The notes under the pieces are model-generated. The model was not told where the DNA came from. It made no database searches and worked only from the letters and a program-made list of their open reading frames with translations. 64,000 bases of DNA from Candolleomyces eurysporus (taxonomy: Eukaryota; Basidiomycota; Agaricomycetes; Agaricales; Psathyrellaceae): contig JANBPK010000819.1 of NCBI GenBank assembly GCA_027579435.1, forward strand, positions 1 to 64,000, in the 5' to 3' direction. Below are positions 5,401-33,998 of the stretch, in pieces. The position numbers and the translations under genes were made by a program. Position 1 is the first letter of the stretch; each line of letters starts with the position of its first letter.

Positions 5401-6436
5401 TAGGGAGTCGAAGAGGGGTTCGTGGCATGCTGGTGCAGGGATTGGCTTGATCCCTTCGCTAGGTGCCCTGGGTAATCTGAACTCTTCACAACCGTCTTCG
5501 CCGAGTTCGGGTCAGCCTTTGGTCCTTAGCCCCGTGGTCGGTGGTGGGTTTGAAGTAAGGTTTGAATGGAAGAGGGCGAAGATGAAAAGTTCGAAAAGCA
5601 AGAATAAAGGGGATAGGAAGGAAAATGGGGCGGATGATAGTAAGAGGGGGAGGAAGAAGTTGAAAGCGGCGCCTGAGGTCAAGGTGCGGGATATGTTGAA
5701 GGAAGGCGGTGGGGACCGGGAAGACACAGATGTGACGCCAAAGATCCCTCAAGTGGACAGTTCACCTCGGAAGATGTCTGTGGCTGAGAGGAAGAGACTC
5801 AATCGGTCGAGCATGGCGAGTGTCAGTAGCCTCGCGACGGAGGAAAAGGAGGGTGATTCCCCTTCCAGAAACTCTTCGTCGCCATCTCGACGAAGCACGA
5901 CCTCAACGAGGAAGAAGAGGTTGTCACTCTTGAGAAAGAAGAAGGACGATGACGGCGACGAATACGGGGGCGCCGGTGACGATGACGAAGATGAGGAGAG
6001 CGACGCAGAAGATTCGGAAACCCCTTGGGTGTGCACCCTCAAGATTCGCCGATCTGAGTATGTCAAGCCACCAGGAGCCTCAGCCGTTGATACGATCACA
6101 TCCGGGCCTTCAAACGGAGAGAAGGAGCAGATTCTTCGGCTGAAAGTGGGGACGCTATCACCGACTCCCCATCACCCGAAAGTGGTGGCTATGCTCAAGA
6201 TCCCCTTCCCCCTCCCTGACGTCGAAGTGGAAAGGATGGAGGTAGTGAGGAAGAAGACACTGTTCAATCAGAATAGCGAGCAGGAGGAGAAGGAGCCGTA
6301 CTACGGCCTGATGCTGAGTGCGGAGGACATCAAGGATATCGTCTGCAGCACTGGGCTATGGCTCGTCGTTCGCGAAGGGTTTGGTGGTGTCGGAAAGATC
6401 AATAGGAAAGGGGACGGGTGGAAGATTCGTGGATGA
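2404..6436 (+). CDS. Large Ser/Pro-rich low-complexity protein with conserved ends
   Basis: Starts MSMFSSFTQFLPSAIQ. One intron (2656-2712, 57 bp) interrupts it, then the frame runs to TGA at 6434-6436, about 1323 residues once the N characters at 3487, 5201, 5218 and 5296 are skipped. Each N breaks the frame and dropping each restores it, including the join into IPSLGALGNLNSS. Most of the protein is Ser/Pro/Thr/Gln/Gly-rich and probably disordered. Ordered-looking parts are a segment near residues 185-240 (NVLTNVIADAGTDAKIARFQ), a short RALMYVWLVARWLKKR segment around residue 915, a beta-rich FEVRFEWKRAKMK stretch and a C-terminal 160-residue region after an acidic DDDEDEESDAED run. I know similar fungal proteins only as hypothetical; an adaptor or scaffold role would be a guess. 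Confidence 0.75.
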
Positions 6437-7135
6437 TCTACGTTACGCAATATAATGGAAAGGCTCTGTTTCTCTCTTCTCTCACAACATCATCATTTTC
6501 TCTTTCTCTTTCGCTCTCGCCCGCTGCATCGTTCACCGTTAATCATTTTATCATTTTGCTTGATGCTACGAGTAGTTCTGTAGACGAACATGATCATTAC
6601 GATTTCTAGCATCCGGCTCCCTCACGAATTCAAGGCTGTACTCTAGTTTCCGTTTACTATATCATTTTCTATTCTACTAATATTCATTCTATACTAACGC
6701 TTCACTCCCGCTTTGCCTTGCCGAAGGGTTGACTCATATCACGACATCCTTGAGCCAGAGTGATCAGCAGCTTCCATTTATCCAAATTCGAAGGCAAGAA
6801 TCCCGGTGCCAGGTGTCGAGTAGGAAGTCATGCCTGGGTCCTCAGGCCTCACCGCGTCTTCTGACCCATTTATAGCGCCAACGGATCTTACAAGAAGGTA
6901 AATCGCGCAGTCAGTCGCCATAATGAGGTCGTCATAAGACCACAACACCGCTTGGACTGATATCAGTTGTTACGACGTTAAGTACGGTAGTTATAAAGGG
7001 TTCAACTTGTTGCGTAAACACCCTTTTCACTGTCACTATATTAGTGTACTTGCCCCACCTCCACCCTTTCACATGAAGAGTATGACACCCGCCCACCGCT
7101 CGTAAAACTGCGGCTCTCTGCCTCTGTCAAACGAG
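6437..7135. other. Intergenic region between two plus-strand genes
   Basis: CT-rich tracts occur just after the upstream stop (6470-6520) and AT-rich sequence around 6640-6700. No coding frame or RNA gene is recognised. The last part presumably holds the promoter of the gene at 7136; no clear TATA box was seen. Confidence 0.4.
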
Positions 7136-8839
7136 ATGACGAGTAGAAGAAATCCGAGCAATGGCAATGTTCAGACACCCAGCGTCAATGGTAAAGCCGG
7201 GTCCGAACAAGGTGAACCGCTGGTGACACAGAAATTTACCCAATCTCCACGTTCATCCCTACCGTCGACGTTCGGACCTCAGTCATCTGCAACCACAACC
7301 AAATCTGCCACAGCAAGGAACACGATACTTCGAACGAGTCCTGAAAGATTTCGGCGCAACAGTTCTGGAGCCCTGATCTCCGTCCCTGAGGAAGGCGGTC
7401 ATATGGAGTTCCCCCAGCAAACTCCCCGTTTTCAAGTCCCAGAGTCGGTAGTGGTGGACGCTGAAGAAGACGACGATGAAGAGGTTGAAGAATGGCTCCT
7501 GGAGCAGGAACTGGCAAGAGAAGGGCTATACCGAGGTGCGTTTTTCGTCATCGTTGTGGGCGCCGAGCTCGAGGCTTACGACTCGACGTCTATAGGGTCG
7601 TACAATCACCTTATTGCTTGGTACACCCTGACGCCAATATCCACAATCCTAACCTTTGCACTACTCGCCATATTCCCAGTGGTCATTTACCCGCTAGACC
7701 CCAAATTCCCTCAATCCCCATATCCCTATGCGCCATATTTGCCGTTCCCCCTCCCTGAGCTTCTGACTGCGGCGGGAATGTGGTCAATGTCCCTGCTTCT
7801 CAGAGAATTTGTGTACTCGCTGCCAAGCTCGCTGTCTTTGACACTCCCGCCCTATGCCTCTCTGCTGCTTTCGCTCCTTGCCACAGCCTTCCAGACGCTG
7901 ATATCAGTGTCTCTCCAACTTGCGGCTGTGGTTCTGCTACTCATCACCCCAACCCCAGGGATCAATCACCCGACGTGGCATGATCATGCATTTCGACGGG
8001 TGTGGACGATTGCTCTGGGCTGGGCTGGGGCAGAAGCAATAGTTGGGATCAAGCAAGGGTACGAAAACATCGCGCTCTACCGGGACGTCCTGGTCAACGT
8101 GAAAAAGATATCGGAAGAGGACTCGCTTATCCCCGGGGAGGGCACAGTTTCAAGCAGCGTCTCGCCAGCCCTGACAAGATCTTCAACCAGGTCGCAAGAA
8201 TTATCGCCTTACCACGATGAAGATGGCCCGGTGCGTGGAGAGCGCCAGCCTCTCCTCGCCAAGCCCCCACAAGCGAACGGTCTTTACCGTTTCTCCAAAA
8301 ACGCTCTCGAGCAGGAGGTGCAGAACGACCTCGACCAGCTCATAGCACTCAGAAGTCGGGAAGAACTGGAAGAAATATATGGAATTCCGGTAATCGTGCG
8401 TGACCCTACCCACTCTCAAGTCTAATCTCTAATTAACCCTCCGTGATTCTTATAGCACGTTCCCGTCTTCATCTCATGTCTCCACCGAATCAACGCAGTC
8501 CTCAACTCCCTCGGGACGTTCCTCGTTCTCTCCGCAGCGTATCTTCGCTCACCCCTTGCGCCCTCCATCCCCGACCGACCTCCCATTCCCTCTTTCTCAT
8601 CAGAAAACTATTCAAGCCTTCTCCAGATATCGAGAACCCTTGCAGGCCTCACTGTCCATCGCGACAGCATCTTGGGTTTGACTGCAGTCGCTGTTGTAAT
8701 ATGTCAGATGGGGCTATCGCTCCTCCACACCGCATGGGTGCTGCCCAAGATTGGCGTACCAACCCATGTCTACGTCGGCCTTTTGGTCTCCCTTGTTCTG
8801 TTTTTCGCTGGATTGGCTCTTTGGGAGGTGTTGGTGTAA
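7136..8839 (+). CDS. Multi-pass membrane protein, function unknown
   Basis: Start MTSRRNPSNGNVQ. Two introns are inferred. 7536-7595 (60 bp, no stop, easily mistaken for coding) joins LYRG to SYNHLIAWY. 8390-8455 (66 bp) joins EEIYGIP to HVPVFISCLHRINAVL. The frame then ends at TAA 8837-8839. The product is about 536 residues. The first 110 residues are polar and low-complexity, ending in an acidic DAEEDDDEEVEEW run. Hydrophobic helices follow (TPISTILTFALLAIFPVV; LLLSLLATAFQTLISVSLQL; LAAVVLLLI), then a cytosolic-looking loop, then more helices in the last exon (LNSLGTFLVLSAAYL; LTAVAVVICQMGLSLL; GLLVSLVLFFAGLALWEVLV). I do not recognise a named family. Confidence 0.75.
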
Positions 8840-9478
8840 TTATTTGTTGCAGTACTATCGGTCGTCACTATCTATCGTGTTTTCTGTGAGTGGTTTACTC
8901 TCGCTTTGGTTTGCTGGTTCTGATTGTCCGTTAGGTTTTGGTTCAAGTTGTTTTCCTCGTGTGGGTTTTATTCGGACTGTGCTGCAGCAGAAATATATAA
9001 TATACACGTGCAATTCCGTAGTGGGGATCGTTGCTCCATCGTTGCCGGAGTGTTTTCAGCCCAATTACCATCAATCCTAAGGGCGAAGGATACAAAGTAG
9101 GGCAAGAACAAGGATCCATAAAACTTGATCTCATCAAGGTACTTTTGTTCACACTCATCGGGAACCTTCATTCAAGCAGATGCGGGGAGCCTGTCCGAAC
9201 AGTGGAGGCCCCAGGTGTGTTGCACAGCCACCTGGGATTTAACAGCATTATATTCTCCTACATCGTCAGCAAAGTTCGAACGGTAAGGTACTGCGTTATG
9301 GGGTTCGGGGTTCCCTCGAGGTACGCCAGGGGGCTGGCGGACAGCGACCGACCAAGGCCGGCCTAGGAATCGTACACACACGCCGGATCGCGAAACGAAT
9401 GAAAATTCTTTCCTACAAATACAGAGTTGACGAGACACACACAGCCTTTCAACCCTAGGGAACAGGCGGTGGTCACCG
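8840..9478. other. Convergent intergenic region, nothing recognised
   Basis: Lies between the 3' ends of the membrane-protein gene and the first member of the coiled-coil array. T-rich 3'-UTR-like sequence covers 8870-8990. Short open frames show no domain. No tRNA or repeat was seen. Confidence 0.4.
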
Positions 9479-10671
9479 CTAGATTGGAGCACTGTCACTG
9501 CCGCCATTTACTGGGAGGAGTTCGCGGGGCATGAAAATTGTCCCGTTGTGGCTTGCTACCAGTTGCATATGGCACTCTGCCAGCTTGTCTTGCAATTCTG
9601 CAATTTTGCGGTTTTGCGCTTCGAAAATTCCGACCGTTGAGATGTTTGCAGCTCCATGTATGTGAGGTTGGGCTCTTGAAAGGGTGAAAAGGGTTTTCCA
9701 CTCCTCCGCAGCGACCCTCTCTTTTGCTATGGTGATCCTGAGCCGGGCCATCGCTTCCTCGTCCTCTGCGATGGTTTCCTCCAGAGATGCGCAGAATTGC
9801 CTCAACCTCTGGCAATCCCGAGATAATGCAAGGACCTCGGTTTCGTGTCCGGCCCGCCGGTCGTTTAGGTGGTCAATAGTTCTATCACGCTGGGCCAACG
9901 TGTCTTGCGTCGATGATAGCAATGTCTCGAGATGCATATTCCTTTCGAGGAGCGACCGAATGCGGTCAGCTTGATGCTCTTCGTCCTTCTCTCTGAGAGG
10001 CGAGGTGTTTACTTTCTCCGAGAAGTCTCTGGAGCCGGCCTTGAGTTGTTGGATAATTGCCTGTTGATTTTGAACGAGCTCTCGCATTGTGGCAAGGTCG
10101 GCTTTGTATTCTCCGTTCTTTTTGGTCAACGAACCGATTTGGGCATCCAACCTAGCCAACTTTGCCATTGACATGATAATATCCCCTTCCTTCTTACCGA
10201 GCTTTCCCTCCAAGGCCGAGCACAGTGACCGGTACACATTAAGCTCTTCGGAAAGCGAAGCGATGAGGTGGTCCTTTGCGCGTAATTCGGCTTGTGCAGC
10301 AGAGAGCGTCCCCGGCACATGCTGAACCTTGTCCATAGCGGCTTCATCTTGATTCTGCAAGTTTGAGACTGCTGAATTGTCAGTTGTAGCTCCAGCAGAA
10401 AAGACATCCATGCGATCGATGCCTTGAGAGTCGCGGCCTCGACGAACCTCGAGTAGCCACGACGGCTCCGGTCTGAGGCGCGTCCTCTTGTTGGGGAGTA
10501 GGTATTTTGGTATCGATCACGTTGGCTGTCCAGAGAAGGAATGATAGTGCAAGGACGCCGAGTAGTACTACCACGGTCTCGCAGAAGGCTGGCAGTAATT
10601 TGAAGGGTCGATCAGCAGGCTAGCTCAAGGAGGGATTTACGAAACTTACTGCATGCAGTCTGGAGTGGCAT
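9479..10671 (-). CDS. Coiled-coil array copy A (divergent, one frameshift)
   Basis: Exon 1 (10650-10671) encodes MPLQTAC. A 61-bp intron (10589-10649, GTAAGT...CCAG) follows, then exon 2 begins with a hydrophobic anchor (TVVVLLGVLALSFLLWTANV). The anchor frame and the coiled-coil frame (from 10411 downward, 310 residues) differ by one base. One base too many somewhere in 10380-10520 explains it; runs of four G at 10493-10496 and four T at 10504-10507 are candidates. Without it the product is about 376 residues. The body is a long heptad-rich coiled coil (LRAKDHLIASLSEELNVYRS; ERNMHLETLLSSTQDTLAQR) ending in the family signature IAELQDKLAECHMQLVAS. It is the most diverged copy. Function unknown. 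The shift could be an assembly error or real inactivation. Confidence 0.65.
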
Positions 10672-10950
10672 TAGAACTAGGAATGAGGATAAAGTGGTCT
10701 TCAAGGTCAACGTTAACAGCAAATTGCAGTGCTCGCCCAGAAGCGCCTTCGGACAATGGGGCGGCGGTACTGATGGCCGTCACATTGACAGTTTGCCCCA
10801 TGCAACCTGTTCGGATATGGGCGCTACTCTAACGAGACATCTAACTGATTTGCGGACACTTGAATCATTATTTAGAGACTTTTATAGCTCTAAAACAGCA
10901 GGAGAAGCGATAAGCGGGGCAATAGAGACCTTGAAAGCTGGTTGGGTAGT

Positions 10951-10969
10951 AGGCGCCAATTTGGCGCCT
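10951..10969. repeat. Perfect 9-1-9 palindrome with E2F/MBF-like cores
   Basis: The sequence aggcgccaatttggcgcct is an inverted repeat of 9 bp around one central base. It contains a TTTGGCGC core, the consensus of E2F/MBF-type factors. It lies about 280 bp upstream of the copy A start codon, in the spacer between A and relic A'. A regulatory role is inferred only. Confidence 0.4.
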
Positions 10970-11173
10970 GTGGCGGCGGCATCGCTTGATATGCCCGATA
11001 GTCCCGACACAGACTCCGATTGAAAGCGCCTTCGGAGCTTTAATTTGCCTACGAGGGACAACCAAACTACGGCAGCTCAGCAGAAAGCTAATTCGCCGGT
11101 ACGCTTATTCAACTCATAGGGTGTATATTGCCATATTGACTGTCTAATTTCTGAGTAAAACTACCGCCAAAGC

Positions 11174-11470
11174 TTACCAAATTGAAGGGCATGGTGGTAA
11201 TGGTTTTGTTGGAAATGGAGCAATGTGATACCTTTCCTTCTTCCCCTTTCGGCTTTCGACTTGCTAATACGGATCAAAGTCTAATAGACCAAGGATAGGG
11301 CGAAAGGCTGTTCCTCCGCCGCCGTTACGACTAGCGAGCAGCTGGCTGTAGCACTGCGAAAGTTTATCCTCTACCTGGGCTATCTTCCGCTCCTTCTGGG
11401 TGATGATTTCTCGCATCGACAGTCTGTGTGTTACGCATTTTACTTCGCAAACGATTTTGGGCCTTTCCAA
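11174..11470 (-). pseudogene. Relic A' of a type-2 coiled-coil gene
   Basis: Only the C-terminal part of a type-2 copy survives: SMREIITQKERKIAQVEDKL, then SQCYSQLLASRNGGG and LLDFDPY. An in-frame TAG follows at the place where copy B reads a Lys codon. The frame then continues with clear homology to the B and D tails (QVESRKGKKERYHIAPFPTK) to a TAA at 11174-11176. Upstream of 11470 no coiled-coil body, anchor or first exon is found. It is a truncated copy with a premature stop. Confidence 0.7.
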
Positions 11471-11604
11471 TTTTTCTTCCTAGAAAGAATCAACTAGCAC
11501 GGCTTAGTGGAAAGCTCACTATCTTGGACGCACTCTCAAATCAAAGTGTGTGAATCATCCTGTCTATTGTCTATCCCGTCTGTCAACCCGCTAGGATCTA
11601 TGGC

Positions 11605-12691
11605 CTATAACTCTAAAGGGTATGTCTGTGGTGACGGTCTGCCAATTGAGGAAGGAGCACTGTAGCACCTCCCTTTCTTCTCCTTCGGGCTTTCGGCTTG
11701 CTTGTATGGATCAAAGTACAAAGGCTCAGAATCAGGGAGGAAAAAGGTCCCTCCGTTGCCACTTCGACTCGCAACCAGCTGGCTGTAGCACTCCGACAAT
11801 TTGTCCTTCAGCTCGGCTATCTTCTGTTCCTTCTGGGCGATGACCTCTCGCATCGACACGCCCGGCGTGTTCTCCCGACTTGAATGCAGAAACATCTCTG
11901 TGAACGGAGAAACCAGCGAAGAGGGGGGTTCAAAGTTCGATTGGCCTCCTTCCATGAACCATGAAGGGATGTCTTCTAGGCCCTGAAGTTTCGACACTGC
12001 GGGGTCTTCGCTTTCAAGTTGGGGCTCCTCCGGAACGTCCACCGCTTCCAACTTCGCTCCCCTATTCTGCGGCCCCGCTGTGGTTGCCTCGTGTTTAGCC
12101 GCCTTTTCCTGAGCGAGGGCAAATGGCGTCCCATATTCTCTTCTTGCTTCTGATGGAGACATGGACATATCCTTTACGCCCCGAGCCTCTGCTAGCGCTA
12201 CTAGAGCCCCTGCCAAGGCTACCAGAGTTTCTTCCCGTTTGCACTGAAGGTTTCGCATCAGGTCAACGTTTTGGGCTCGAGTAATCGCATGTTCCCGGCG
12301 TTCAGTTAGAAGCTCTTCCAACGTCGTTGCAAGCTGCCGCTTCAAATTGGCCATCTCGCTAGCATCCTCGATCGTGACCTTTCCCTCTCGCGGAATCGGC
12401 GCCCTGTCAGCTCGCCCGTCGCAGCCTGGTTCTCTGCGACCCCCATCGACTTTTGGGAGATCGCTCCGTGATTGTGCGGGTGCATGTTGGACCTTGGAAG
12501 TATTTTGCTTTGAGTCATTGCCCGGTACCCCGTAAACTTCTTTCACGAGTAAAGCAAATGCCGCGACAAGAAACTTGAGCAGTAAACGTCCGATCTCGGC
12601 CAACACTGCGTTCGCATTACATCGGATGCTCAGCAACCAACATTTATTGAGGAAAACCTTCTGACTTACCTGACGAGTTCTGAGGGGACAT
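11605..12691 (-). CDS. Coiled-coil array copy B (type 2)
   Basis: Exon 1 (12670-12691) encodes MSPQNSS. A 64-bp intron (12606-12669) follows, and exon 2 runs 12605-11605; together 340 residues with no frame break. The ORF is also open upstream of the true ATG and through the intron, which hides the splice. Residues about 8-32 are a membrane anchor (LLLKFLVAAFALLVKEV). Next comes a polar linker, a coiled coil (MANLKRQLATTLEELLTERR; EARREYGTPFALAQEKAA), an acidic segment with an IPSWFMEGGQ block, and the family signature IAELKDKLSECYSQLVASRS. The tail has a YSAPSS motif. Copy D is the closest relative: same exon structure, same blocks, about the same length. Predicted membrane-tethered scaffold; function unknown. 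Confidence 0.8.
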
Positions 12692-12773
12692 CGGGCTCGT
12701 AAATAATGTGGCGACTCGGAGGGGGAGTGCGGCTGAGGAAGGCTGGCACACACTATCGCATTGTAACCCTTGA

Positions 12774-12806
12774 CCATCTAATGTTGTTAACTGCAATGAC
12801 GTTGAC
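12774..12806 (-). promoter_or_regulatory. Conserved block upstream of copy B with a TGACGT core
   Basis: The block contains ccatctaatgtt (12774-12785) and tgcaatgacgttgac (12792-12806), about 85-115 bp upstream of the copy B ATG. The same two elements in the same order lie upstream of copy D (16066-16096). The TGACGT core matches the CRE/ATF half-site. Either a conserved promoter or simply recent duplication would explain it. Confidence 0.45.
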
Positions 12807-13111
12807 AGTTCTCCAGTTTTAGTCTTCTGACAGGCACATGTCATCGCAACGCCGAGACCCCCAGCCAACCACGTTCCAACATAGCCAACACTCCAGACAT
12901 TTCACGGTGCTCAGCCCGAAATAAAGCTTGTGTACCATGTGTCACCTGCTCATTCACAGCAGGGATTGGAAGGGCCGAGAGAATTCCGGATGTCAAAATC
13001 ATGATGGTTGTGAACTCAAATATTATCACTATCTACCTAGTTTCTACATCCAGCTCTACTACCCGGCGAGTAAACTATTAATAAGAAAGAGAACATTTAC
13101 GGATGTTATTT

Positions 13112-14420
13112 TCAATAGTATCCGCGCCGGAAAAAATCTGGGGGACTACTCAGTGCGCTATTGAAACTTCGTGACCTTGAATGCACGTCCTCGTGGTCCC
13201 CTGCACTCTCACCGACAACTATCGACGGTAGTGATAGCGAAAATGGTCCCGCCAAATTCCCTGCCTGACTGGCAACGAGCTGCCCATAGCATTCGGACAG
13301 CTTGTCGCTCAGCTCCGCGATCCTGCGGTCCTTCTCCGCGATAATCCCTTGCATAGAAAGTGTAGAAAAGGTTGCATCCGTCCGTGGGATGCACATGCGT
13401 GGCTGGTGAGGTTGTGATAGCGATTGAATATATAGATCCTTCCAATCGCCCGCTGCGGCAGTCTTTTCGGCAAGGCTTAGCTTGAGTTGGGCGATAGTCA
13501 CCTCGTCTCGAGCGGCGTCCTCGGTCAAAGACTTGCGAAGACTTGCCAGATTTTCACACTCCTCAGACAACGACGAGATGTGATGCCGCATAGAGTCGAT
13601 ATCGGAAGTTTGTTCTGTGACCTTGGCATTCAACTGGGCAATGGTTGCGTCGTTTTCGGTAAGCATTTGTTTCTGACTTTTGACGGTCTCAGAGAGGGCG
13701 TCGATGTGCCTATCCTGCGTCTTCAGAATATCGGTAAGCTGGAGTAAGGCTGCTTCTTGGAACGCGATCATATTTTGCATGGAAGTAGCGTCGGTTCGCC
13801 ATTCCTCGTTCTTCTTCATAAACGAAGCAATTCGAGCATCTTTGGAGGCACCCTCTGCCTCGAGATTTGCCAACCGCCCCGTGAGCTCGACAACTGTTGC
13901 TTCGTCCTTGGCCGCTTTTTTTTGCATCGCCGAACAGAGAGCTTGGAACTCTCTCCTGGCTTCGGTGAGTGAGGTGATGTGGAGGTCCTTGGCGGTGGCT
14001 TCAGCTCGTGCAATCGAAAGGTCTTGTCGGTGCTGGGTAAGGGCTTCGGTCGCTTTAGCGAAACTGTCTCGCAACTCGAATATCGTACGGTCGTTCGTCG
14101 AGTCTTCACTTTGCACTGAGGCATCTGCCATCGTCTTGAACGCCTTTCCCTGTTCTGCTGAACCAGTCCACCCAGAACCAGGACCTGAGCACCTGGCTTC
14201 GGTGCCCTCCACTGACCAGCTCTTTCTGTACTTTTCATTCTCTCTTGATCGAGTGTTTATCAGCAACTTGAAGGCTACGGGAATTAGCAGCAAACACCCA
14301 AGGAGTAGTGGAGCTGGGATATTGATAAAAACTGAGCATGGCGGAGACCTTTATCAATGGATTGAATATAGACATCCGAGCAACGATCGACATACGAGAA
14401 GGAGTGGTTTGAATAGGCAT
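13112..14420 (-). CDS. Coiled-coil array copy C (type 1)
   Basis: Exon 1 (14396-14420) encodes MPIQTTPS. The intron is 14332-14395 (64 bp, phase 1), and exon 2 runs 14331-13112; total 414 residues with an intact frame. The anchor is INIPAPLLLGCLLLIPVAFK. A polar linker with VQSEDSTNDRTIFELRDSF leads into about 230 residues of coiled coil, including LHITSLTEARREFQALCSAM, the block VVELTGRLANLEAEGASKDA, and QLKLSLAEKTAAAGDWKDLY. The family signature IAELSDKLSECYGQLVASQA is followed by a Ser-rich tail ending near SSPPDFFRRGYY. No catalytic motif is visible. The short exon 1 plus anchor suggests a signal-anchored protein with the coiled coil on one side of a membrane. Confidence 0.82.
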
Positions 14421-14487
14421 CCCAAGATACCAGTCGGAATGCAGATTAGCATCAAGTCGGGAGGCTACCGAGGGCACGCACACGGGC

Positions 14488-14501
14488 TTTATCATCGTTC
14501 A
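14488..14501 (-). promoter_or_regulatory. 14-bp element shared by copies C and E
   Basis: The sequence tttatcatcgttca (read as TGAACGATGATAAA in the gene direction) lies about 70-80 bp upstream of the copy C start codon. It is identical to 17789-17802, at a similar distance upstream of copy E. The flanks are less similar, so it may be a TATA-like core promoter with a conserved neighbour. Confidence 0.45.
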
Positions 14502-14890
14502 GCAGCAGTGTAGCCTGTGTAGGTAGGGTGGCTGCGCCAGGTTCCAATCAGAACGGCGCATTTCAACCGTACTGAATCCGTGGCGGTTGAGATCACTGAA
14601 CAGCAATAATTGAACAGCAATACGACGACCAGGGATGTTTGGTCTTTGGATCAAACAAATACAAACTTTATCTTTACGTAACGCGTCGCGACCTATGCCA
14701 TTTTCCGAGCGGATGCGTTGAGCGACAATGTAACAGGTCGGTTCTTATGTTTCAATATGTCCCTTTTCCGTTGCTTTTCAACCAGGACAACTTTGTGCGA
14801 TTCGCCCTTTATGCCACAATTTTGGATTGGGTGTTGGAGCGAAAAGGGGATGATGACTATTGTTTTATCCAATGTCGGGCACCAGCAGAT

Positions 14891-15988
14891 CTACAGCGCG
14901 AAAGTGCATACTGGTAACGGTCTTGTTGGATATGGGGCACTGTGATGCTTTGCCTTCTTCGCTGTCTCTCCATACGGATCGAGATCAAATGGGTCCGAGT
15001 TGAGGAAAGGGGGAAAACCGGTCTCTCCGCTGCCGTCACGGCTAGCAACTAGCAGGGCGTAGCACTCGGACAGTTTATCTTTCAGGTCAGCTATCTTGTG
15101 CTCCTTCTGGGCGATGACCTGCTTCATCGAAAGGCTCGATGTATCTCCCTGAGGGTGCAGGAAGGGGTTACGGGCTATCTCATATGGCGCCGGCTCTGCG
15201 AACAGGGAACTTGAAGATGGCACAGTTGGGACTGGCCACTTTTTATCGTGTTTCTGGGGATCGAGGCTCGGTTGACTTCCATCCATGAACCATGGTGTGA
15301 TGTCTTCTAAGGCTTCGAGAGGGGCTTCGCTCTCAAGTTTCGAATTCTCCAAAGTGGCTTCCAACTTCGCCACTTTGTTCTGCAGCTCCACAATGGTTCC
15401 CTCGTCCTTAGCCGCCTTTTCCTGCATGATAGAAAATAGCGCCTGGTATTCTCTTCTTGCTTCCGACAGAGACGACATGCACATATCCTTTGCGCATCGA
15501 GCCTCTGCCTGAGCTACCAGAGCTTCTTCTCGTTTGGACTGAAGCTCGTTCAAGAGGTCGGCGTTTTGGGCTCGAGTTATGGCATGTTCCCGTCGTTCTC
15601 TTTGAAACTCTTCCGACATCGTTTCGAGTTGTTGCTTCAAATTGGCCATCTCGGAAGTGTTCTCGAACGCGGCCTCGGTATGTCGTTGAATGGGCACCCG
15701 GTCACCTTGCTCATTGCAGCCTGGTTCTTTGCCATTCCCATCGATTTTAGGGAGTTCGCTTCTTGATTGCGCGGGCGCATTTTTGACTTTGAAGGTACTT
15801 TGCTTTGCGGCAATTTTTGGTGACCGGTTAGCTTCTTTCACAAGTGAAGCTATCACCGCGACAAGGAACTCGAGCAATAAACGTCCGGTGTCAACTAACA
15901 CTGTGTTTGCATTACATCGGATACTCAGCGACCAACATTCTTCGAAGAATGCCTTCCAACACTTACCAGTGGAGTTCTGAGGGGACAT
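14891..15988 (-). CDS. Coiled-coil array copy D (type 2)
   Basis: Exon 1 (15967-15988) encodes MSPQNST. The intron is 15901-15966 (66 bp) and itself has no stop, so the raw ORF reads through it. Exon 2 runs 15900-14891; total 343 residues. The anchor (RLLLEFLVAVIASLVKEA) is followed by a linker and a coiled coil (MANLKQQLETMSEEFQRERR; LSEARREYQALFSIMQEKAA; VELQNKVAKLEATLENSKL). An acidic ITPWFMDGSQ block and the signature IADLKDKLSECYALLVASRD follow. The tail ends HHSAPYPTRPLPVCTFAL. It matches copy B through its whole length, including the blocks in the tail, so B and D are duplicates. Confidence 0.82.
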   Translation of the reverse strand: MSPQNSTGKCWKAFFEECWSLSIRCNANTVLVDTGRLLLEFLVAVIASLVKEANRSPKIAAKQSTFKVKNAPAQSRSELPKIDGNGKEPGCNEQGDRVPIQRHTEAAFENTSEMANLKQQLETMSEEFQRERREHAITRAQNADLLNELQSKREEALVAQAEARCAKDMCMSSLSEARREYQALFSIMQEKAAKDEGTIVELQNKVAKLEATLENSKLESEAPLEALEDITPWFMDGSQPSLDPQKHDKKWPVPTVPSSSSLFAEPAPYEIARNPFLHPQGDTSSLSMKQVIAQKEHKIADLKDKLSECYALLVASRDGSGETGFPPFLNSDPFDLDPYGETAKKAKHHSAPYPTRPLPVCTFAL

Positions 15989-16065
15989 TGGGCTCGAGGA
16001 TAATGTGGTGAGTGGAAGTGGGGCTGAGGGGTATTATCAGTCGCTATCGCATTTTTAACCGTTCG

Positions 16066-16096
16066 CCATCTAATGTTTGATTGCAGTGACGTTGAC
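16066..16096 (-). promoter_or_regulatory. Conserved block upstream of copy D with a TGACGT core
   Basis: ccatctaatgtt (16066-16077) and tgcagtgacgttgac (16082-16096) repeat, in order and spacing, the elements upstream of copy B at 12774-12806. The wider spacer (to about 16330) also shares short blocks with the B/C spacer, such as cactatcgcat/gctatcgcat and an AT-rich atattattactatct segment. Confidence 0.45.
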
Positions 16097-16416
16097 GATT
16101 CGTTCTTCAGTGGTGTCTTTTGACGGGCACAGGCTGTGGCCAGCTAACCCCGTGCCGACACCGCCTTAGCACAGCACTCCAAATATTTCATGGCCCTGAA
16201 ATATACGACGCCTACTGATATATAGCAGAGATTGGGAGAACAGGGAGGCTGCTGGGTATCAAGATGGGTGTGACCCACAATTTCTCGAATATTATTACTA
16301 TCTGCCATCCACCAAGTTTCCGAAACCTACTATGTTGTCCGTACTTGGCTATATGCTAAGTCTGTGATGTGACCACGGCGGTCCGAAACCTGGAACAAGA
16401 TTACGCTGGCAAAGGA

Positions 16417-17717
16417 CTACGAAGTTGGTACGCTACTGAACATGGGCCAACTCCTGTGCCCATACTCTGAGCCGAGGCCTGAAAAGGTTTTTGACCTCGA
16501 TAAATCCGCGCCATTGTTTTCAGCATAACCTCCCGAACTCCCACTGACAAATACAGTTGGAGGTAAGGGAAAGCGTCCGACCAAAGTGTCCGTTTGACTG
16601 GCTACAAGCTGTCCGTAGCACTCAGACAGTTTGTCGTTGAGCTCTGCGATCCTGCGGTCCTTCTCCTCCATGATTCCTTGAATAGACAGCGCAGATAAGG
16701 ACACATCCGTGCGCATGCGAGGCTGGTGAGGTTGAGATAGCGACTGAATATATAGGTCCTTCCAATCGCCGGCTTCGGCAGTCGTTTCAACGAGTTTGAG
16801 CTTGAGCTGGACAATCGTTTCCTCATCCCGAAAGGCGACTTCGGTGGACCGCTTGCAAAGATTGTTAAGTTTCTCGCATTCCTCGGAAAACGATGATATA
16901 CGATGCCTCATGGAGTCGTTTTCGGAGGATTGTTCCGTAAGCTTGGTGTTTAAACTGGTAACGATTGTGTCATTTTCAGCAAGCAACTTCTTCTGACTTT
17001 TGACGGTCTCGGAAAGAGTGTCGTTGTGCTTGTTCTGCGTCTTCAATATATCGCCGAGCTGGAGTAAGACCGCTTCTTGAAACGCTATCATATTCTGCAT
17101 GGAAGTGGTGTCAGTTCGCCATTCCTCGTTCTTCTTCATCAACGAAGCGATTCGAGCATCTTTGGAAGCACCCTCTGCCTCGAGATTTGCCAGCCGCCCC
17201 GTGAGCTCGACAACTGTTGCTTCGTCCTTGGCCCCTTTTTCTTGCATCGCCGAACAGAGAGTTTGGAACTCCCTCCTGGCTTCTGTAAGCGAGGCGATGT
17301 GGAGGTCCTTGGCGGTGGCTTCAACTCGTGCAGTCGAAAGCTCTTGTTGGTTTAGAGAGAGAGCTTCGGTTGCTTTAGCAAGGTTGTCCCGCAATTCGAC
17401 TATTATCTGCTCATCTGCCGATTGTTCGGTTTGCACCGAGGCGTCCGCCGTCGTCTTAGATGCCTTCCGCTGTGTTGCTAAGCCAGTAGAGCCGCAAACA
17501 GGCTCCGAGTTTGAGTCCACTGACCGGTTACTTGTGGACTTTCGCGCCTCCCATGGTCGGGGGTTGGCCAGAAAGGCCAAATTGATGAACACCAGCAACA
17601 TCACGAGTAGAGGGGCCGGAATGTTGATGATAACTGCATGCCGGAAACGCTAATCAACGAAAAGGATACAAGGAGACAATGAATCGACCTACCGGAAGCG
17701 GCAGCTTGAATAGGCAT
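16417..17717 (-). CDS. Coiled-coil array copy E (type 1)
   Basis: Exon 1 (17693-17717) encodes MPIQAAAS. The intron is 17634-17692 (59 bp, phase 1), and exon 2 runs 17633-16417; 413 residues, frame intact. The anchor is INIPAPLLVMLLVFINLAFL. The coiled coil carries the same blocks as copy C, nearly identical over LEAEGASKDARIASLMKKNE and GDWKDLYIQSLSQPHQPRM. The signature IAELNDKLSECYGQLVASQT is followed by a Ser/Gly-rich tail containing SKTFSGLGSEYGH. C and E differ mostly in the linker and tail, so the coiled coil is the constrained part. Function unknown. Confidence 0.82.
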
Positions 17718-17788
17718 TCTACAAAGATCCCAATCGGATTGAAGAGGGCGTGGAGTATCGAGTGTCGGGCACAAAGCACATATAAGGT

Positions 17789-17802
17789 TTTATCATCGTT
17801 CA
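17789..17802 (-). promoter_or_regulatory. 14-bp element shared by copies E and C
   Basis: Identical tttatcatcgttca, about 75-85 bp upstream of the copy E ATG. See 14488-14501 upstream of copy C. Confidence 0.45.
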
Positions 17803-18093
17803 AGAAGAGAGTGGTTCTGAGCCCGTCAATCCCGAGATATGGACTGTCCCACAGCAAACTGCACTGCTTCGCACCGGATCATGGCTGGCCTGTTCGGCAT
17901 TGGCGCCTACTCGGCGCTCGACAACTTCAACGAATAAAACAAATCGAATCTGCACAATCGCATCCTCGGTCCCTATTGGGGGCATAGAGATTCATTTGGT
18001 CGCGATGGTACGTTCAAGTCGACTATTCATAAAAAGTGAGTAATAATGTACAGATTCATACGATTCGTCTATTCAACCCAAAATAGTTTGTAT

Positions 18094-20353
18094 TTACCTA
18101 TCTGACCGATAGCGTGTTCGAAAAGGACCATGAATAGAGCTAGGAGCCGGCGCGCTTTTATGGCTGTTAGATCCTGTATCCTCATTACAGTCTCCTTCGC
18201 TCTCACCGGTAGCTGTTGTCGGTGGTCGCGAAAAGGGTACCACGAAATTACCTGCCTGGCTGGCTAACAGCTGCCCGTAACATTCAGAGAATCTGTCATT
18301 TAGCTCTGCGAATCTTCGATCCTTCTCCGCAATAATTCCTTGTATAGAAAGGTCGGACGCAGGTACACCCATCCCCATACGTCCGTGTGGCCGTTGAGGC
18401 TGGGATAGTGATTGAATATACAGGTCCTTCCAACCTTCCATTGCGGCAGTCTTCTCGGCAAGGTTGAGTTTGAGTTGGGCGATGATTTCCTCATTGAGAG
18501 CGGCGGCCTGGGTCAACGAATTACGGGTGCTTGTGAGGCTCTCGCATTCCTGGGATAGCAATGAGATGCGATCTCCCATAGTGTCGTTTATAGAGGTTTT
18601 TTCTTGAAGTTTGGTGTTCAACTGGTCGATCATTGTGTAGCTTTCAGCAAGCAGTTTTTTTCTGGTTTTCGACGGTCTCGGAGAGGGTGTCGCTGTGCTT
18701 GTTCTGGGTCTTCAGCATCTCAGTGAGCTGGAGTACGGTTGTTTCTTGAACGGCGACCCTCTCTTCCAGAGAAGTGGCGTTTGCGTTCCATTCTTCACCC
18801 TTCTTTGTCAATGAGATGATTTGAGCATCTTTGGAAACTCCTTCTTCCTCAAGTCTCTCGAGCCGCCCCATCAAATCGGCAACCGTTTCTCCGCCCTCGC
18901 CCTCTGTGGTGAGATTCTCCAACCGGCCTGTGAGCTCAACGATGGTTGCTTCGTCCTTGGCCGCTTTCTCTTGCATGGCCGAACAGAGAGCTTGGAGGTC
19001 CCTCTCAGCGTCGCTGAGTGAAATGATATGGAGGTCCTTGGCTTTGGCTTCATATCGTGCCAATGAAAGCTCTTGTCGGTGCTTGGAAATGTTTAAAGTC
19101 GCTTGTTGGAGCATGCGCCTCAATTCGACGATTGTACCCTCATTTGTTGGATCTTCAATTTGCACCAAGGGATCGTCCGTTGTCTCCAACGTTTGCTCCT
19201 GCGTCGCTGAGCCAGTAGAAAAGGAGCTAGGACCCAAGNCCCCCGTCTCCTGCGCCATCTTGAGCAGGCGGGATACTTCTGGACCTTTCATCTTCTCCTG
19301 ATCGAGAGTTCGCCAGAAAGGCCAGGTGAGCTACCAGCAATAACGCAAAGAGTAGGGGAGATGGAACGTTCATGAAAACTAGGCGTCCCAGAGNAACTTG
19401 TTCAATAAAAACGACTAAAAAAGGCAGCAAAAAAAATTCACCTTGCAAAGGGATGTTCCAACAATGCCTGTCCCTTAAATGCCGAGGGCCCAGAGGAATT
19501 ATCGGAACAGCGCTGGTCACGTCAACCTTGAATCCTCTATTGACATACTTTTGCACCCATGCTTGAGGCCAGTTCTCGATGATACTGTCCCGAGAGCATA
19601 CGATAAAAACTCGATCCAAGAAAGTTGCCTTCGGAAACACCGATATGGCCTCCCTATATGTGATGATGTTCATGACTCCTGCTGGTATTTTAAAGGTCAG
19701 CGAACGCTGCGGATAAGGTGAACATATGAAGGGATGAACATACTAGAGTGATAAGTATGAACTATATGCTCCACTGGGTCCTGGGCGACCACTACGACCT
19801 GAACTTTTAGGTTATAAAGAATACTTCGATGGTAACCGTATATCTTCCTCCCAAAGTCGAAAATCTTGATGATCCCATGCTTTCCACCTCCGCTATGAAA
19901 TGCACGCGTGGATGTTATTCCGAACGCTTCATCGACCACTGTGTATTCGTCAGTCCTACTATATGGACCACCCCTTCCGAGTCTGGAGTATCCTTCGCAA
20001 ACAAGGTTGAGAAGGATGGGCAAAACGCCTCCGACTCTGACGACAACATCCAAGTCGGACCCAGGATTTGGGGGTTGACGATCAAAAAACCTGAGCACCT
20101 GCGACCCCGAAATCACTCCATTTGACTTTAACAGTTCAGCGCGAAATCGGTCCACGTTACTGAACCACAAGGATAAGAATTTAGAGACGTTCCACGCACG
20201 TTTTTCGTATGCCACCACTATCTGCCTGATCAAGCTCGACGTGCTTGAGAGTTTAGTGAGTTCTAAGGGCGTGAAGTGACCGAAAAACGTGTTCAAGACT
20301 GTTTCGTCACACTTGAAAAAGAAAGAGAGGAGAACATTGGGAAGTGGACGCAT
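18094..20353 (-). CDS. Nucleotidyltransferase-like / coiled-coil fusion (array copy F)
   Basis: Exon 1 (20353-19744) encodes MRPLPNVLLSFFF and an NTase-superfamily signature GSQVLRFFDRQPPNPGSDLD (Gly-Ser, then Asp-x-Asp). Intron 19682-19743 (62 bp) leads to exon 2 (19681-19442), ending GPRHLRDRHCWNIPLQ. Intron 19379-19441 (phase 1) joins this in frame to the copy F exon, which opens with the family anchor (MNVPSPLLFALLLVAHLAFL) and continues through the type-1 coiled coil to the signature FAELNDRFSECYGQLLASQA. Two extra bases must be ignored: N at 19239, and one T in the run of seven at 18655-18661. The total is then 710 residues. The usual MPIQ first exon of the family is absent here. The paralogue at 34392 has an intron at the same place after its own WTIPRSPQ. 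Alternatives are two separate genes, or a non-functional junction. Confidence 0.6.
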
Positions 20354-20605
20354 AACTGCTCGCGATGCGTGGTGATCGGAACGTGAACGAAGCTTATGAC
20401 ACATCGTGTTCAAATTATTAGGTAAGTGATAACATCGGATAACCTCGGATAAGTTCGGTGAGTTGCACAAATCTGTAATATTTATAGGGAGAAGAACGGG
20501 TTAACCCCAGGAAGTTCGCTTTCAGCGAGACTAACCTCGCGAAAGCTGTCCATGGTATTCTCGGAAGATAATATGCATAATTAAAATATATTATGAAGGC
20601 AGGGC

Positions 20606-20613
20606 TATAAAAG
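20606..20613 (+). promoter_or_regulatory. TATA box of the gene at 20653
   Basis: tataaaag, about 40 bp before the start codon, in the 300-bp divergent region shared with the nucleotidyltransferase-like gene. Confidence 0.55.
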
Positions 20614-20652
20614 AAGCGAAAAATAGGACAGATGGTGCTTTACCACTGAAAG

Positions 20653-22017
20653 ATGTCTTACCTCTCAACCCTCGAACATTGGTGTAAAAATTGTCTCTCC
20701 AGTGACGAGACTCCATTATTACATGTATCAGAAAGAATAGGCACGAGCTCTAACCGCTATTCCCTTCAACGTTCAGGCGAATTCAGAAGCTTGTGGCAGG
20801 TGAATATTCTCTTGCGTTTTTTCCTTCTTAATTTCATTCTTACCTTTGTTCAGCTCTGGGACATGGATTCAGATTCAGCAGTCGTTGCGACGCATGCGTT
20901 CGTCATAGACTTCGCCTCAGATCTTAGGACAGGCAACTTCGTCCCGGAAGGTGAGAAACCTCCTAACGACATGCTCGACTACCAATGGTGCGCTTTCATT
21001 CTTATTATAATACCTCTTACAGCGCTGAATATGACTTTACAGCAAAAGAGAACCCGGTTTGCAGGCCCAGGTCTCCTTAGCTTTCGACACAAGGGAAGAT
21101 AAATCCGTTTACAGATGCCTAAAGGTACGTTCATGCATTTGGAATCCTATACTGATCAAGAAATCATCCTGACAGCGTCCACAGACCATAGAGGACTGGC
21201 TTTCCAACGTATCGGATTTCAATACTCTAAAGAAGCCCAGGTCAACCTGGATGTCACCGGAGAAAGAAAACGAAGCCAATCACCACCGATATATTGTCAG
21301 CTCGTCGCTGTTTCAGAAACGCACAACCTTTAATTGTCCCGACGGGAAGTACTCCGTGAACTACGAAGTACACCCGTGGATAGAGAGAAACTGCGTCCCT
21401 CACAACAGATCCTGGATTCCCAACCCATCCTTGGTTTCAGTTCTAGACGGCCTGACAGGGACCCTTATCGATATTCGCGACGCGTCAGACTCTGAACTCG
21501 AGCAAGGCGATATCGTTAAGATTAAATTCAAGGTTACTTTTTCTGTCAGTAGACTGAACTGGCTGACTACTCTGGTCCCTCTCCAGGTGGTTCGCGTCGG
21601 ACGCGTAGACTCCTCTGGCCCTCAAAACCCCGTTCACAGTGGAGACCACGTGGGGGTAATACTGCTCAAACCAGGCTCAAAGCTGGCGCTCTTATCAGGT
21701 ATGTGCTTTCTTCCAATATTTCGTCTGAATTATATATATCTGACATACATTCCTCCTTCCATTTAATTTCAGATAAAGACCAATCTGTGAGTATGAAAGA
21801 GGAGAGGACGGAAGGTGGCAGTCCAGACTGGGGCTCCATTAAAGAAGAAGAGGAAGATTTTGCCGACCAGACGACTGGACAACCTCCGGATAGCGACCTC
21901 TCCGAAGGCGACGACATAGTGAAAGTGCATACTGCGTCCAAGGCAGATTCTAAGGGAAAGAGAAAGGCCAACGACGAAGGCGACAGGAAAAAGCGGATCG
22001 TTAAGGCGAGGAAATGA
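20653..22017 (+). CDS. Orphan spliced gene with acidic/basic C-terminus
   Basis: Seven exons are inferred: 20653-20799, 20854-20950, 21043-21070, 21115-21124 (a 10-nt micro-exon), 21176-21532, 21587-21698, 21773-22017. They join without a frame break into 331 residues. The middle reads RPQTIEDWLSNVSDF, then RSTWMSPEKENEANHHRYIV and PDGKYSVNYEVHPWIERN, a segment rich in aromatic and Cys/His residues that looks folded. A beta-rich part follows (LEQGDIVKIKFKVVRVGRVD). The C-terminus is acidic (KEEEEDFADQ) and then basic (KRKANDEGDRKKRIVKARK), probably a nuclear localisation signal. I recall similar mushroom proteins only as hypothetical. It is divergent from the nucleotidyltransferase-like fusion gene. 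Confidence 0.65.
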
Positions 22018-22644
22018 GCGTTTGGTTAGTCTGATCGCACGATTCCAGACGACCATGGAGTCTATTCACTTAAAGTCAGCGAATTAGTCCCATAATCCTA
22101 TACAAGTATCCTTTCATCCAGTTAGTAGTAAGTGTACAATAGTTGCTACATATCGATATCTTGATACTGTATTAAGTTTGTGATTATAAACATTTATATT
22201 TTGGATACGAGCGAATCACATGGAAGCAAACAGGGCATAGAGAATGGCTACAGAGACTTTAAAGCTATATCTAGCCATACCAAGGTCGGATGTTAATCTA
22301 GCCTCGAAGACCTTCGTAAAAGAGGTGTAGCATGTATTTCGAATACCTACTCTCAAGCGTATAGAGACAATTATACATGTTGATGATAGCAGTGACCATG
22401 CAATCAACGGAATAAATCTTCTACGCTTTCTTGCAACATGTCTCCCCTATGGCGTACCATCCGACAGAAAGACTTCCGTAGCTCTAACATGGTGTATGTA
22501 GACCGTCCGTTCCAATACTTGATACCTTCTTGCCCTCTACTCGAAATGCCGCTGCGATCATCTTGCCTGACGTCGAGAGTGCCTGATGACTGAGTTGAAA
22601 GGAACAAAGTAAAATTGGACTCGAATATTTGTTCGATTAATGGA
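22018..22644. other. Intergenic region, nothing recognised
   Basis: AT-rich 3'-flank sequence between two convergent genes. Short minus-strand frames have no recognisable content. Confidence 0.4.
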
Positions 22645-23272
22645 TCAAATGTTCCATGGACGAAGGATTGGCAGTCTATCGACTTGGTCTTCAGGGGATA
22701 GCTGTTTGTCCTGGGTATTAATAAGGACGAACTGCGACGTAGAGGATGGAAAGTATGCTGAGGAGAACCTAAGGCAAGGGTATGTACCGATTTCTGGCGA
22801 TAATTTCAGATATTGATATGGGTCGATGTGGCCTTCGGCAGAAGAGTAGTCCACCTCTAGTGTCGATAAGTCCATTATTGGGAGCAGACGCATAGTTGAA
22901 GAGTCGTAACGAGACGGAATAGGAAAGAAATTTCCCTGTGGGGTCCATTCCGTGATGTAATAAACGAATAGGGGGNACGAAGGTGTACAAGGGGTCTGCA
23001 CCAATGGACTTGAAAGTATCACCGTAAGGACCAAGGACGTGTTGCAAGTCTGTTCTGCAGGGTGCTGATTACTTGAAAGTTGGCCCTCGAAAGTATTCTT
23101 GGTCGTTGTCTGGCTCGTCCTGTAAGAGTTTCGTAGTAAGATTCTCAATGCCTAAAACAATCTCTCAGACCGTTTAAAGGCATGACAATCAAGTTTGCTT
23201 ACCTTCACAACGCTGAACAGTTACATCATCGATACCATGGCCGAGGGGCGCGCAGACCAGTTTGAACGTCAT
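22645..23272 (-). pseudogene. Orphan gene with an in-frame stop
   Basis: Starts MTFKLVCAPLGHGIDDVTVQ at 23272. Intron 23152-23202 (51 bp, phase 1) joins CEG to IENLTTKLLQDEPD. The frame reaches GPTFK and a TAA, then continues in the same frame as DLQHVLGPYGDTFKSIGADP. Dropping the N at 22976 carries it on through PLFVYYITEWTPQGNFFPIP to PILRPWNI and a stop. So one continuous protein of about 190 residues is broken only by the TAA. A very short intron over the TAA cannot be excluded. The second half is rich in aromatic residues and Pro. The family is not recognised. Confidence 0.5.
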
Positions 23273-23991
23273 GGCCACTTCTACATGATTAGCGTGTTTA
23301 CAGTCGATCAAGACGACTGAATAAAGCGGCGGCAAACGAACTCAGTAAATAAACCTTCCTTCCTTGAGATAATGCCAAAGCAAAGATAAATTGGATGTTG
23401 ATTGAAAAGACCAGCTGGTCCACTTTTAAGAACGCAGTCGGGCGCTTACTGGGTAAAGACGGCTAAGCACATAATCTGGGGACCGGATTGAGGACGGATG
23501 GAATCTTACTTGGGGGATATACATAACAAACTATGCGCATTACTTTAAAGCTATGAGAGAGATTGAGCTGGCATCTAAAATGAGTCCACAGGTGACGAAG
23601 ATGGCGAAAGAGAAGACAAGGAGGGGACGATCATTGCCTGATCCAATTTAGTAACTTGAACGTGTCACGTGTAAATCCACGGAATTTGCCGAATCAATAA
23701 TTTCTCTCAAATCGCCAGTTAACGGACCTTATCTCGCACTTAGTCTCAATATTTCCTTCGCAACGTCGAGCGAGTCAGTATATAATAACCCGTAGCATTC
23801 AAGAAAAATTGCTATCACCGAATATAATAATCTGCCGATTCACTGCTCTTGTTTGGGGCAATAGGGGCAATAGGGGCTTATCCCAGCAGTATAAAAGGAA
23901 CCGACTTGACTTGCGCTGGTACAGACTCACTCCCCGAGAACCCAAGTCAATCCTACCCATATCCACATATTTCTACTCGCCCATACCCACG
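23273..23991. other. Divergent intergenic region upstream of the Helitron gene
   Basis: AT-rich. It separates the minus-strand orphan gene from the Helitron protein gene and should contain the Helitron 5' terminus, which I could not place. The repeated unit aataggggc occurs in tandem near 23860. Confidence 0.35.
23890..23897 (+). promoter_or_regulatory. TATA box of the Helitron protein gene
   Basis: tataaaag about 95 bp upstream of the inferred start codon at 23992. It suggests the element still carries its own promoter. Confidence 0.5.
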
Positions 23992-29900: not shown

Positions 29901-30041
29901 GACAGACTGGATCTGCTTGAACAAAGGACCAAAGCAGACTATAAAAGACGATATCCGATGGGTGATCTACTTTCCACACGAGAACCCTTTAGACATGTAG
30001 GAGACGATCCCGCCAAAGATAGTGACAGTTCTGAATTCTAG
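23992..30041 (+). mobile_element. Helitron (rolling-circle transposon), termini not located
   Basis: Identified by its RepHel protein gene. The 3' end must lie before 30593, where the neighbouring ribonucleotide reductase gene ends, and the 5' end after about 23272. I looked for a CTRR terminus preceded by a hairpin in 30042-30592: several CTAA/CTGG tetranucleotides are present but none has a convincing hairpin upstream. Coordinates given are those of the coding region. Confidence 0.8.
23992..30041 (+). CDS. Helitron RepHel protein (HUH Rep + PIF1 helicase), one frameshift
   Basis: Exon 1 (23992-24040) encodes MSMNYQSFLRCPTYVI. Intron 24041-24110 (70 bp) leads to the main exon. If one A in the run of eight at 28137-28144 is ignored, the product is about 1992 residues, normal for a complete RepHel. 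Order of domains: an N-terminal SAP-like helical segment (LTIPLLRIIAQGHGIKLARN); Cys pairs CAAC and CQEC; the Rep HUH motif GSLHCHMLVWL near residue 810; the Tyr motif YYVTDYITK near residue 997; then a PIF1-type SF1 helicase with Walker A GGKGGTGKS, Walker B LIVDEVSM, GDFCQLAPP, DYKSQGRTLDSV and YVMLSRVKSLKG. The Rep half stops at 28145-28147 in its own frame. The enzyme nicks and unwinds DNA for rolling-circle transposition. No other disabling change was seen. Confidence 0.9.
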
Positions 30042-33927: not shown

Positions 33928-33988
33928 GTTAGTGAATCTTTATTTGCGTTACAGAGGAGCAATGTTCAAGCACGAGTGAGATTTATCC

Positions 33989-33998
33989 CCTTTTTATA
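33989..33998 (-). promoter_or_regulatory. TATA box of the ribonucleotide reductase paralogue
   Basis: TATAAAAAGG on the minus strand, about 62 bp upstream of the ATG at 33927. A canonical promoter supports a gene that can be transcribed. Confidence 0.5.

Follow-up and report, generated by a model that had tools for sequence, protein, structure and literature searches.

A tandem array of predicted membrane-anchored coiled-coil proteins in Candolleomyces eurysporus and its place in a larger gene family

Layout of the array

The stretch of DNA analysed here, referred to as the window, comprises 64,000 nucleotides of the mushroom Candolleomyces eurysporus (contig JANBPK010000819.1, positions 1 to 64,000; hereafter C1105) from an assembly of 65.85 Mb in 1296 contigs (GCA_027579435.1). 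Between positions 9479 and 19378 reading frames and spliced models define seven minus-strand units, which are predicted to encode coiled-coil proteins with a hydrophobic N-terminus and a conserved C-terminal helix, called the tip below. In the direction of transcription their order is G (type II), II_17, I_16, II_14, I_12, relic I' and A (Table 1). Four are intact genes with spliced models, two of type II (II_14 and II_17) and two of type I (I_12 and I_16), and all four have a first exon of 22-25 nt (7-8 codons) followed by a phase-1 intron of 59-66 nt. The relic was typed as I by its DNA match to I_12. It was originally predicted that all units share a short first exon with an intron at the same place, an anchor, a coiled-coil rod and a C-terminal signature; the signature is indeed present in all seven, and the complete units also have the short exon and intron, the hydrophobic N-terminus and the predicted rod. 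Neither relic I' nor the window copy of unit G has an exon 1, the latter having lost it at a haplotype breakpoint, and a scripted search for short-exon models missed the window copy of unit A but found the model of the corresponding allele on contig C504.

Table 1. Features of the array, with positions in the window
Feature	Position	Strand	Remarks
Unit A main open reading frame (ORF)	9479..10516	-	Diverged member, 345 aa in main frame
Unit A anchor-encoding part	ORF 10380-10619		Different frame from main ORF
Unit A putative exon 1, 22 nt	10650..10671	-	By eye; exon 2 start would be 10588
Relic I', C-terminal end of type I copy only	11264..11479	-	
I_12 (type I) exon 2	11605..12605	-	Spliced model
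I_12 exon 1, 22 nt	12670..12691	-	Spliced model
II_14 (type II) exon 2	13112..14331	-	Spliced model
II_14 exon 1, 25 nt	14396..14420	-	Spliced model
I_16 (type I) exon 2	14891..15900	-	Spliced model; AlphaFold2 model
I_16 exon 1, 22 nt	15967..15988	-	Spliced model
II_17 (type II) exon 2	16417..17633	-	Spliced model; AlphaFold2 model
II_17 exon 1, 25 nt	17693..17717	-	Spliced model
Unit G (type II) exon 2 region	18094..19378	-	Exon 2 start by eye
Unit G open frames	18094-18711, 18644-19330, part of 19227-19742	-	Frame changes at A-run and N bases
Haplotype breakpoint	19433..19445	.	C504 homology stops 19438; C1152 homology starts 19446

Contig C504, once inverted, matches window positions 1597-11025 at 95.4% and 11457-19438 at 97.3%, and is read as the second nuclear haplotype. 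It had been allowed at the outset that the array might be an artefact of assembly; the array, however, also stands in this other haplotype.

The conserved tip and the wider gene family

The family signature consists of a serine followed by a four-heptad helix around L-x-[DK]-[RK]-[LIV]-[SA]-[EQ]-C-[HY]-x2-L. In an alignment of 16 C-termini of distant members, type I not included, a W, an S, an L, a C and a further L never vary; nor do the tip residues S, L, D, E, C and L in a set of 12 full-length proteins in which type I is represented. The predicted conserved end on a variable rod is thus well supported. The claim that the signature is kept even in diverged unit A and in the relic also held, as a search with II_14 alone matched the tip region in all six other units (relic E-value 1.7e-5); a 12-sequence tip profile scored all seven at 57-73 bits, but all seven were themselves seeds of that profile.

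Among the loci fetched, a profile of the last 40 residues found 49 places scoring at least 20 bits on 16 contigs (the window counted as one), both haplotypes included and 12 of the places being profile seeds, against a best score of 6.5 bits for reversed ORFs. A search with one 100-residue C-terminus from C504 gave 44 matches at E ≤ 0.01, recovering five window units and missing I_16 and the relic. Several contigs form haplotype pairs (C504 with C1105, C958 and C80; C1122 with C647; C1146 with C8), and when these are collapsed we estimate by eye about 30 loci, fragments included. Further family contigs were matched outside the 49-place count, namely C1003, C1156, C614, C789 and C381. Judged by sequence comparison, the array forms one of the clusters in a large gene family of Candolleomyces.

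The core cysteine is accompanied by L, V or P four residues on in 48 of the 49 places. Both the W and the cysteine motif occur in 33, at a distance of 45-59 residues, and ahead of the W the open frame in these same places is between 61 (in broken copies) and 489 residues long. Of the family frames fetched, the longest is one of 757 residues at C647:7665-9935 with 77-residue rod repeats (identity at lag 77, 32%), if a 770-residue frame at C504:20008 without the signature is left aside. The hinge ahead of the tip starts with a DWKDLY-like motif in many members, while type I proteins are without it. Directly after the tip, 28 of the 49 places carry CxC or CCC (e.g., C1040, C1146, C314 and C504:4466-11445), a possible site of lipidation or metal binding, while all seven window units have VAS or LAS there and none has CxC or CCC.

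Database searches retrieved 17 relatives, of which two come from the window itself, six are unnamed metagenomic proteins and nine carry an organism name. All nine of the latter are from Candolleomyces: six from C. aberdarensis and C. efflorescens together and three from C. eurysporus. This restriction to one genus is provisional, because two of the searches scored about 8000 candidates, one scored 37 and the method needs shared exact words. The relatives from C. aberdarensis (EST38_g6277, EST38_g2853 and EST38_g6272), C. efflorescens (MD484_g7659 and MD484_g8691) and C. eurysporus (H1R20_g6606, H1R20_g13457 and H1R20_g1755) are labelled 'hypothetical' at source and have the rod and tip of the array members, with the models P0010 and P0014 stopping before or within the tip and two others (P0001 and P0006) fusing neighbouring genes. 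A script run without a shuffled control detected the short exon 1 and phase-1 intron in 10 of another 15 models, most of them from other clusters. Our literature searches found nothing joining Candolleomyces with coiled coils or naming the three locus-tag prefixes, and nothing joining the septal pore cap, Agaricomycetes and coiled coils.

Comparison with Pfam and with PDB sequences returned mainly generic coil models. No named motor or tail domain passed its cut-off in a Pfam scan of the seven array ORFs (for II_14, among the best 25 of 30 families); the sole model that did so was SlyX, a short coil model, in II_14 (36.9 vs. 30 bits). A sequence profile against the PDB gave 25 matches at E ≤ 1, the best of which (0.0023) is a phage tail needle coil, and a Foldseek search of the PDB with the II_17 model alone gave no match at E up to 10. 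Membership of a known coiled-coil family, the other eventuality that the original prediction had allowed for, was likewise not borne out, as no named family was found. The database entry for P0010 carries a precomputed PF27954 domain, which our Pfam scan did not report.

Proposed function and alternative readings

The charges around the N-terminal hydrophobic stretch are biased, with no K or R before the best 19-residue window in 11 of 11 proteins and at least one K or R within the 15 residues after it in 10 of 11. The AlphaFold2 model of the II_17 frame has helices at residues 12-28, 77-304 and 323-355, with 167 of 410 residues at a predicted local distance difference test (pLDDT) score of at least 90. 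That of the I_16 frame follows the same plan (helices 21-40, 44-69, 120-235 and 303-332), its helix 21-40 lying upstream of exon 2 and outside the gene model. The continuous predicted helix is 228 residues long in II_17 and 116 in I_16. In 9 of 12 rods residue similarity at lags divisible by seven exceeds all 500 shuffles. The best internal lag of the rod is 77 residues in the members on C647, C1040 and C1146, 63 on C998 and, faintly, 70 on C1200. Rod indels are multiples of seven in 21 of 57 cases, and in 21 of the 27 that are at least seven residues long, in comparisons between pairs that are not independent.

The likeliest of the readings weighed, at a rough probability of 0.45, is that these proteins are N-terminally anchored cytosolic rods with a distal docking helix that act as membrane tethers. 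Each would comprise, in order, the residues of the short exon 1, the anchor, a helical rod of varying length, a short hinge, the tip and a variable tail. The hydrophobic N-terminus would anchor the protein with its N-terminus facing the lumen or the outside, as the charge bias suggests, and leave rod and tip in the cytosol. The rods would pair through their heptads, and the tip, a strongly conserved amphipathic helix with a core cysteine at the distal end, may dock on a common partner or on itself. Each protein could then hold or space something at a set distance from the membrane, with paralogues providing rods of different reach.

Several observations weigh against this tether reading. Only 8 of 11 proteins carry a net positive charge behind the anchor, and in 5 of 11 (I_16, I_12, C504_10273, 8643 and 4466) an arginine lies inside the 19-residue window near its N-terminal end. 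The predicted structures are monomers built from 20 (II_17) and 9 (I_16) alignment rows, with mean pLDDT of 72.8 and 63.6. Heptad periodicity is less marked in I_16, I_12 and A, for which 10, 11 and 25 of 500 shuffles, respectively, attain the observed value, and a test of hydrophobic periodicity gave p < 0.05 in only two of four array proteins. Some of the signature places are fragments. Functions may also differ within the family, as type I proteins are without DWKDLY and the array is without CxC.

A more specific version of the tether reading is that the proteins are membrane rulers, in which anchor and tip are constant and the rod lengthens or shortens mostly by whole blocks of heptads that stay in phase. 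A single fungus would then possess a few dozen tethers of graded reach; in the large subfamilies S-acylation of CxC or CCC would let a rod bridge two membranes over a gap of set width, and the window array, with VAS or LAS in that position, would have lost this second attachment and dock to a protein instead. We regard this combination as unlikely. The member at C314:8685-9893 has a best internal lag of 73, which is not a multiple of seven and speaks against length by heptads, and the 20-residue insertion in the lineage of unit G is not a multiple of seven either.

The N-terminus can also be read differently. If the proteins were secreted or at the cell surface, with a signal peptide that is cleaved or an anchor that leaves the rod outside, they might act in the wall or the hyphal sheath. 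The hydrophobic stretch does begin after only a few residues, in type II it is followed by AFLANPRP, which by eye resembles a cleavage site, and the arginine near its N-terminal end in 5 of 11 proteins fits as well. Unlike in a classical signal peptide, however, K and R are absent before the window and present after it in the proportions given above, and we judge this reading improbable, though one to be taken seriously. About as improbable is that the genes are fast-turnover orphan coils with little specific function, the tip being kept only for the stability of the coil. The many partial copies across the clusters, the presence of relic I' in one haplotype only and the confinement of organism-named relatives to one genus in the searches made would all agree with this, but selection argues otherwise. 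The ratio of nonsynonymous to synonymous rates (dN/dS) between paralogues is 0.25 for type II and 0.36 for type I, values which show the paralogues to be under purifying selection. In the tip dN is at its lowest (0.070 and 0.138, over 32 codons, with dS above 1), and comparison of the two haplotypes over the four intact genes gives 31 synonymous and 35 replacement differences (pooled dN/dS 0.34), with zero replacements in the tip. The orthologues of type II in C. aberdarensis and the invariance of tip positions over distant subfamilies also stand against this reading.

It had been suggested that arrays of this kind are tied to recognition or conflict, and an allorecognition family, in which partners such as NACHT proteins would recognise the different paralogues or alleles, was weighed. 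Two NACHT genes (C504:1-1377 and C647:2959-4254) were found among 20 non-family ORFs scanned from the clusters, out of 68 candidates, and a further one lies on C789; I_16 alone shows 2 synonymous and 10 replacement differences between haplotypes, a ratio of 1.46. NACHT or NPHP3_N genes are, however, very numerous in the 65.85 Mb assembly (150 were scored of 1340 first-look candidates, and all 150 passed the cut-off), and because of this abundance such neighbours are unsurprising, although no formal test of this was made. We accordingly did not retain a NACHT partnership, for which the neighbours exist but the candidates are too common to be meaningful. The array alleles are 97% identical with the pooled ratio given above, from two haplotypes only, too few to judge the depth of alleles. 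Given this low and constrained allelic divergence, the link to recognition finds no support and we hold it to be very unlikely.

Least probable of all would be a derived TMF/Sgm1-type golgin. The C-terminal end of such golgins binds Rab6-type GTPases, and the tip would have this role here. The likeness lies in a coiled coil that ends, at the C-terminus, in a short and conserved helical segment (PF12325, PF12329) and in scattered Pfam matches, while TMF is not known to have an N-terminal anchor. The metagenomic member P0016 passes the PF12325 cut-off (33.3 vs. 29.1 bits), PF12329 is precomputed in the database for P0004 and P0010, and several members match PF12329 in our Pfam scans, but under the cut-off (best 31.2 vs. 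35 bits). PF12325 is absent from the best 25 of 44 families in the scan of the 16 aligned tips, and when the genome was searched with this model seven weak matches came up, none of them on a family contig. A golgin origin is thus not supported by the genome-wide search or by the scan of the tips.

The tether reading has a closer parallel in plan among animal proteins. Kinectin and p180 have an N-terminal membrane anchor. To our knowledge, neither a conserved cysteine-bearing helical tip nor a large multigene expansion is a feature of kinectin, p180 or CLIMP-63. None of the three was matched in Pfam scans of the seven array ORFs and seven relatives, in which no direct alignment was made, and none is among the 25 weak PDB sequence matches. 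Kinectin, p180/RRBP1 and CLIMP-63 are described as endoplasmic reticulum (ER) sheet proteins reported in some metazoa only, in which a membrane anchor and a long coiled coil shape or space membranes (PMC9804665). The comparison is one of how they might work: the Candolleomyces rods would resemble kinectin and p180 in plan but not in sequence, and family membership is not claimed. What fills the role of the animal ER-sheet coiled coils in mushrooms is a fair question, because those coils are reported only in some metazoa (PMC9804665), and the rod family makes it testable. A single conserved partner of the tip, if there is one, would account for the few dozen loci of this kind that a mushroom retains. 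The family itself, with its fixed ends and a rod whose length differs largely by heptad steps, would offer a natural experiment in the evolution of tether length.

History of the array and the haplotype breakpoint

The proposal that two types always alternate is contradicted by the neighbours II-II and I-I' and by unit A, which is a separate branch. A tree made without relic I' groups G, II_17 and II_14 in a supported clade, places the type I genes in a second one and leaves A outside both. DNA repeat families recur at 3295-3331 nt (II_14 to II_17, I_12 to I_16), and the spacer inside each II-I pair is homologous (64% identity vs. 40% for five shuffles). Because of this register and the homologous spacer, the alternating core fits a single duplication of a block made up of one type II and one type I gene. 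Upstream of II_17 and II_14 the similarity of the spacers barely exceeds chance (44% vs. 40%, five shuffles), and these upstream spacers contain a 30-nt match to C504 sequence lying upstream of unit G. We considered, but do not claim, that the relic marks a third II-I pair, as the other haplotype has unrelated sequence there with only short matches.

The two types may work as pairs, as originally suggested, in so far as II-I adjacency occurs twice in the array and once in a C. efflorescens model (P0006), which runs from a type II gene into a type I gene; the alternation itself, however, follows from one block duplication. In the tree II_14 has one C. aberdarensis orthologue as its sister and II_17 has another, which places the type II duplication before the split of C. 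eurysporus and C. aberdarensis. No type I gene of C. aberdarensis was retrieved, and the dating thus applies to type II only.

This age casts doubt on the claim that local gene birth and death is visible here, as do the frame breaks. Unit G is interrupted at positions 19394 and 19239, where N bases stand, and at an A-run that has 7 A in the window and 6 in C504, while its C504 copy has a frame break of its own at another A-run and the C. aberdarensis model EST38_g6277 (P0001) continues through the part corresponding to G. In a G-run of unit A the window lacks two bases that C504 has, and the allele of this unit (C504:34339-35469) carries anchor and rod in one frame; the C504 allele of II_14 contains one N. 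The breaks look like consensus errors, lying at sites typical for such error, although real changes are possible. Gene death is doubtful because they are homopolymer or N differences from the other haplotype. Of the claimed turnover there remains relic I', present in one haplotype only.

A 'fused' copy G had been counted as a product of gene turnover, but this copy coincides with a haplotype breakpoint. Homology to C504 extends as far as position 19438, within the first intron of unit G; the window sequence from 19446 onward aligns at 71% with contig C1152, in a different gene. The C504 copy of unit G possesses, judged by eye, a normal first exon for the family, and four more signature-bearing members lie upstream of it. 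EST38_g6272 resembles three of these four and EST38_g6277 corresponds to G plus II_17, both presumably on the same C. aberdarensis contig of 71933 bases. The window arrangement at 19438 is therefore either derived or a misjoin.

To the right of the breakpoint, window positions 19446-39000 mostly match the 51-88 kb part of C1152, with the order rearranged and at a much lower identity (about 68-79%) than the 95-97% between haplotypes to the left, and parts match other contigs. Besides small genes that match no Pfam family, this stretch contains a Helitron-like gene and a fragment of ribonucleotide reductase. The first consists of two overlapping frames at 24098-30041 with Helitron_like_N and PIF1 helicase domains, as in a Helitron-like element. 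The second, at 31040-31927, is a fragment of the large subunit of ribonucleotide reductase (E-value 1.2e-63) inside the C1152-like stretch, perhaps captured.

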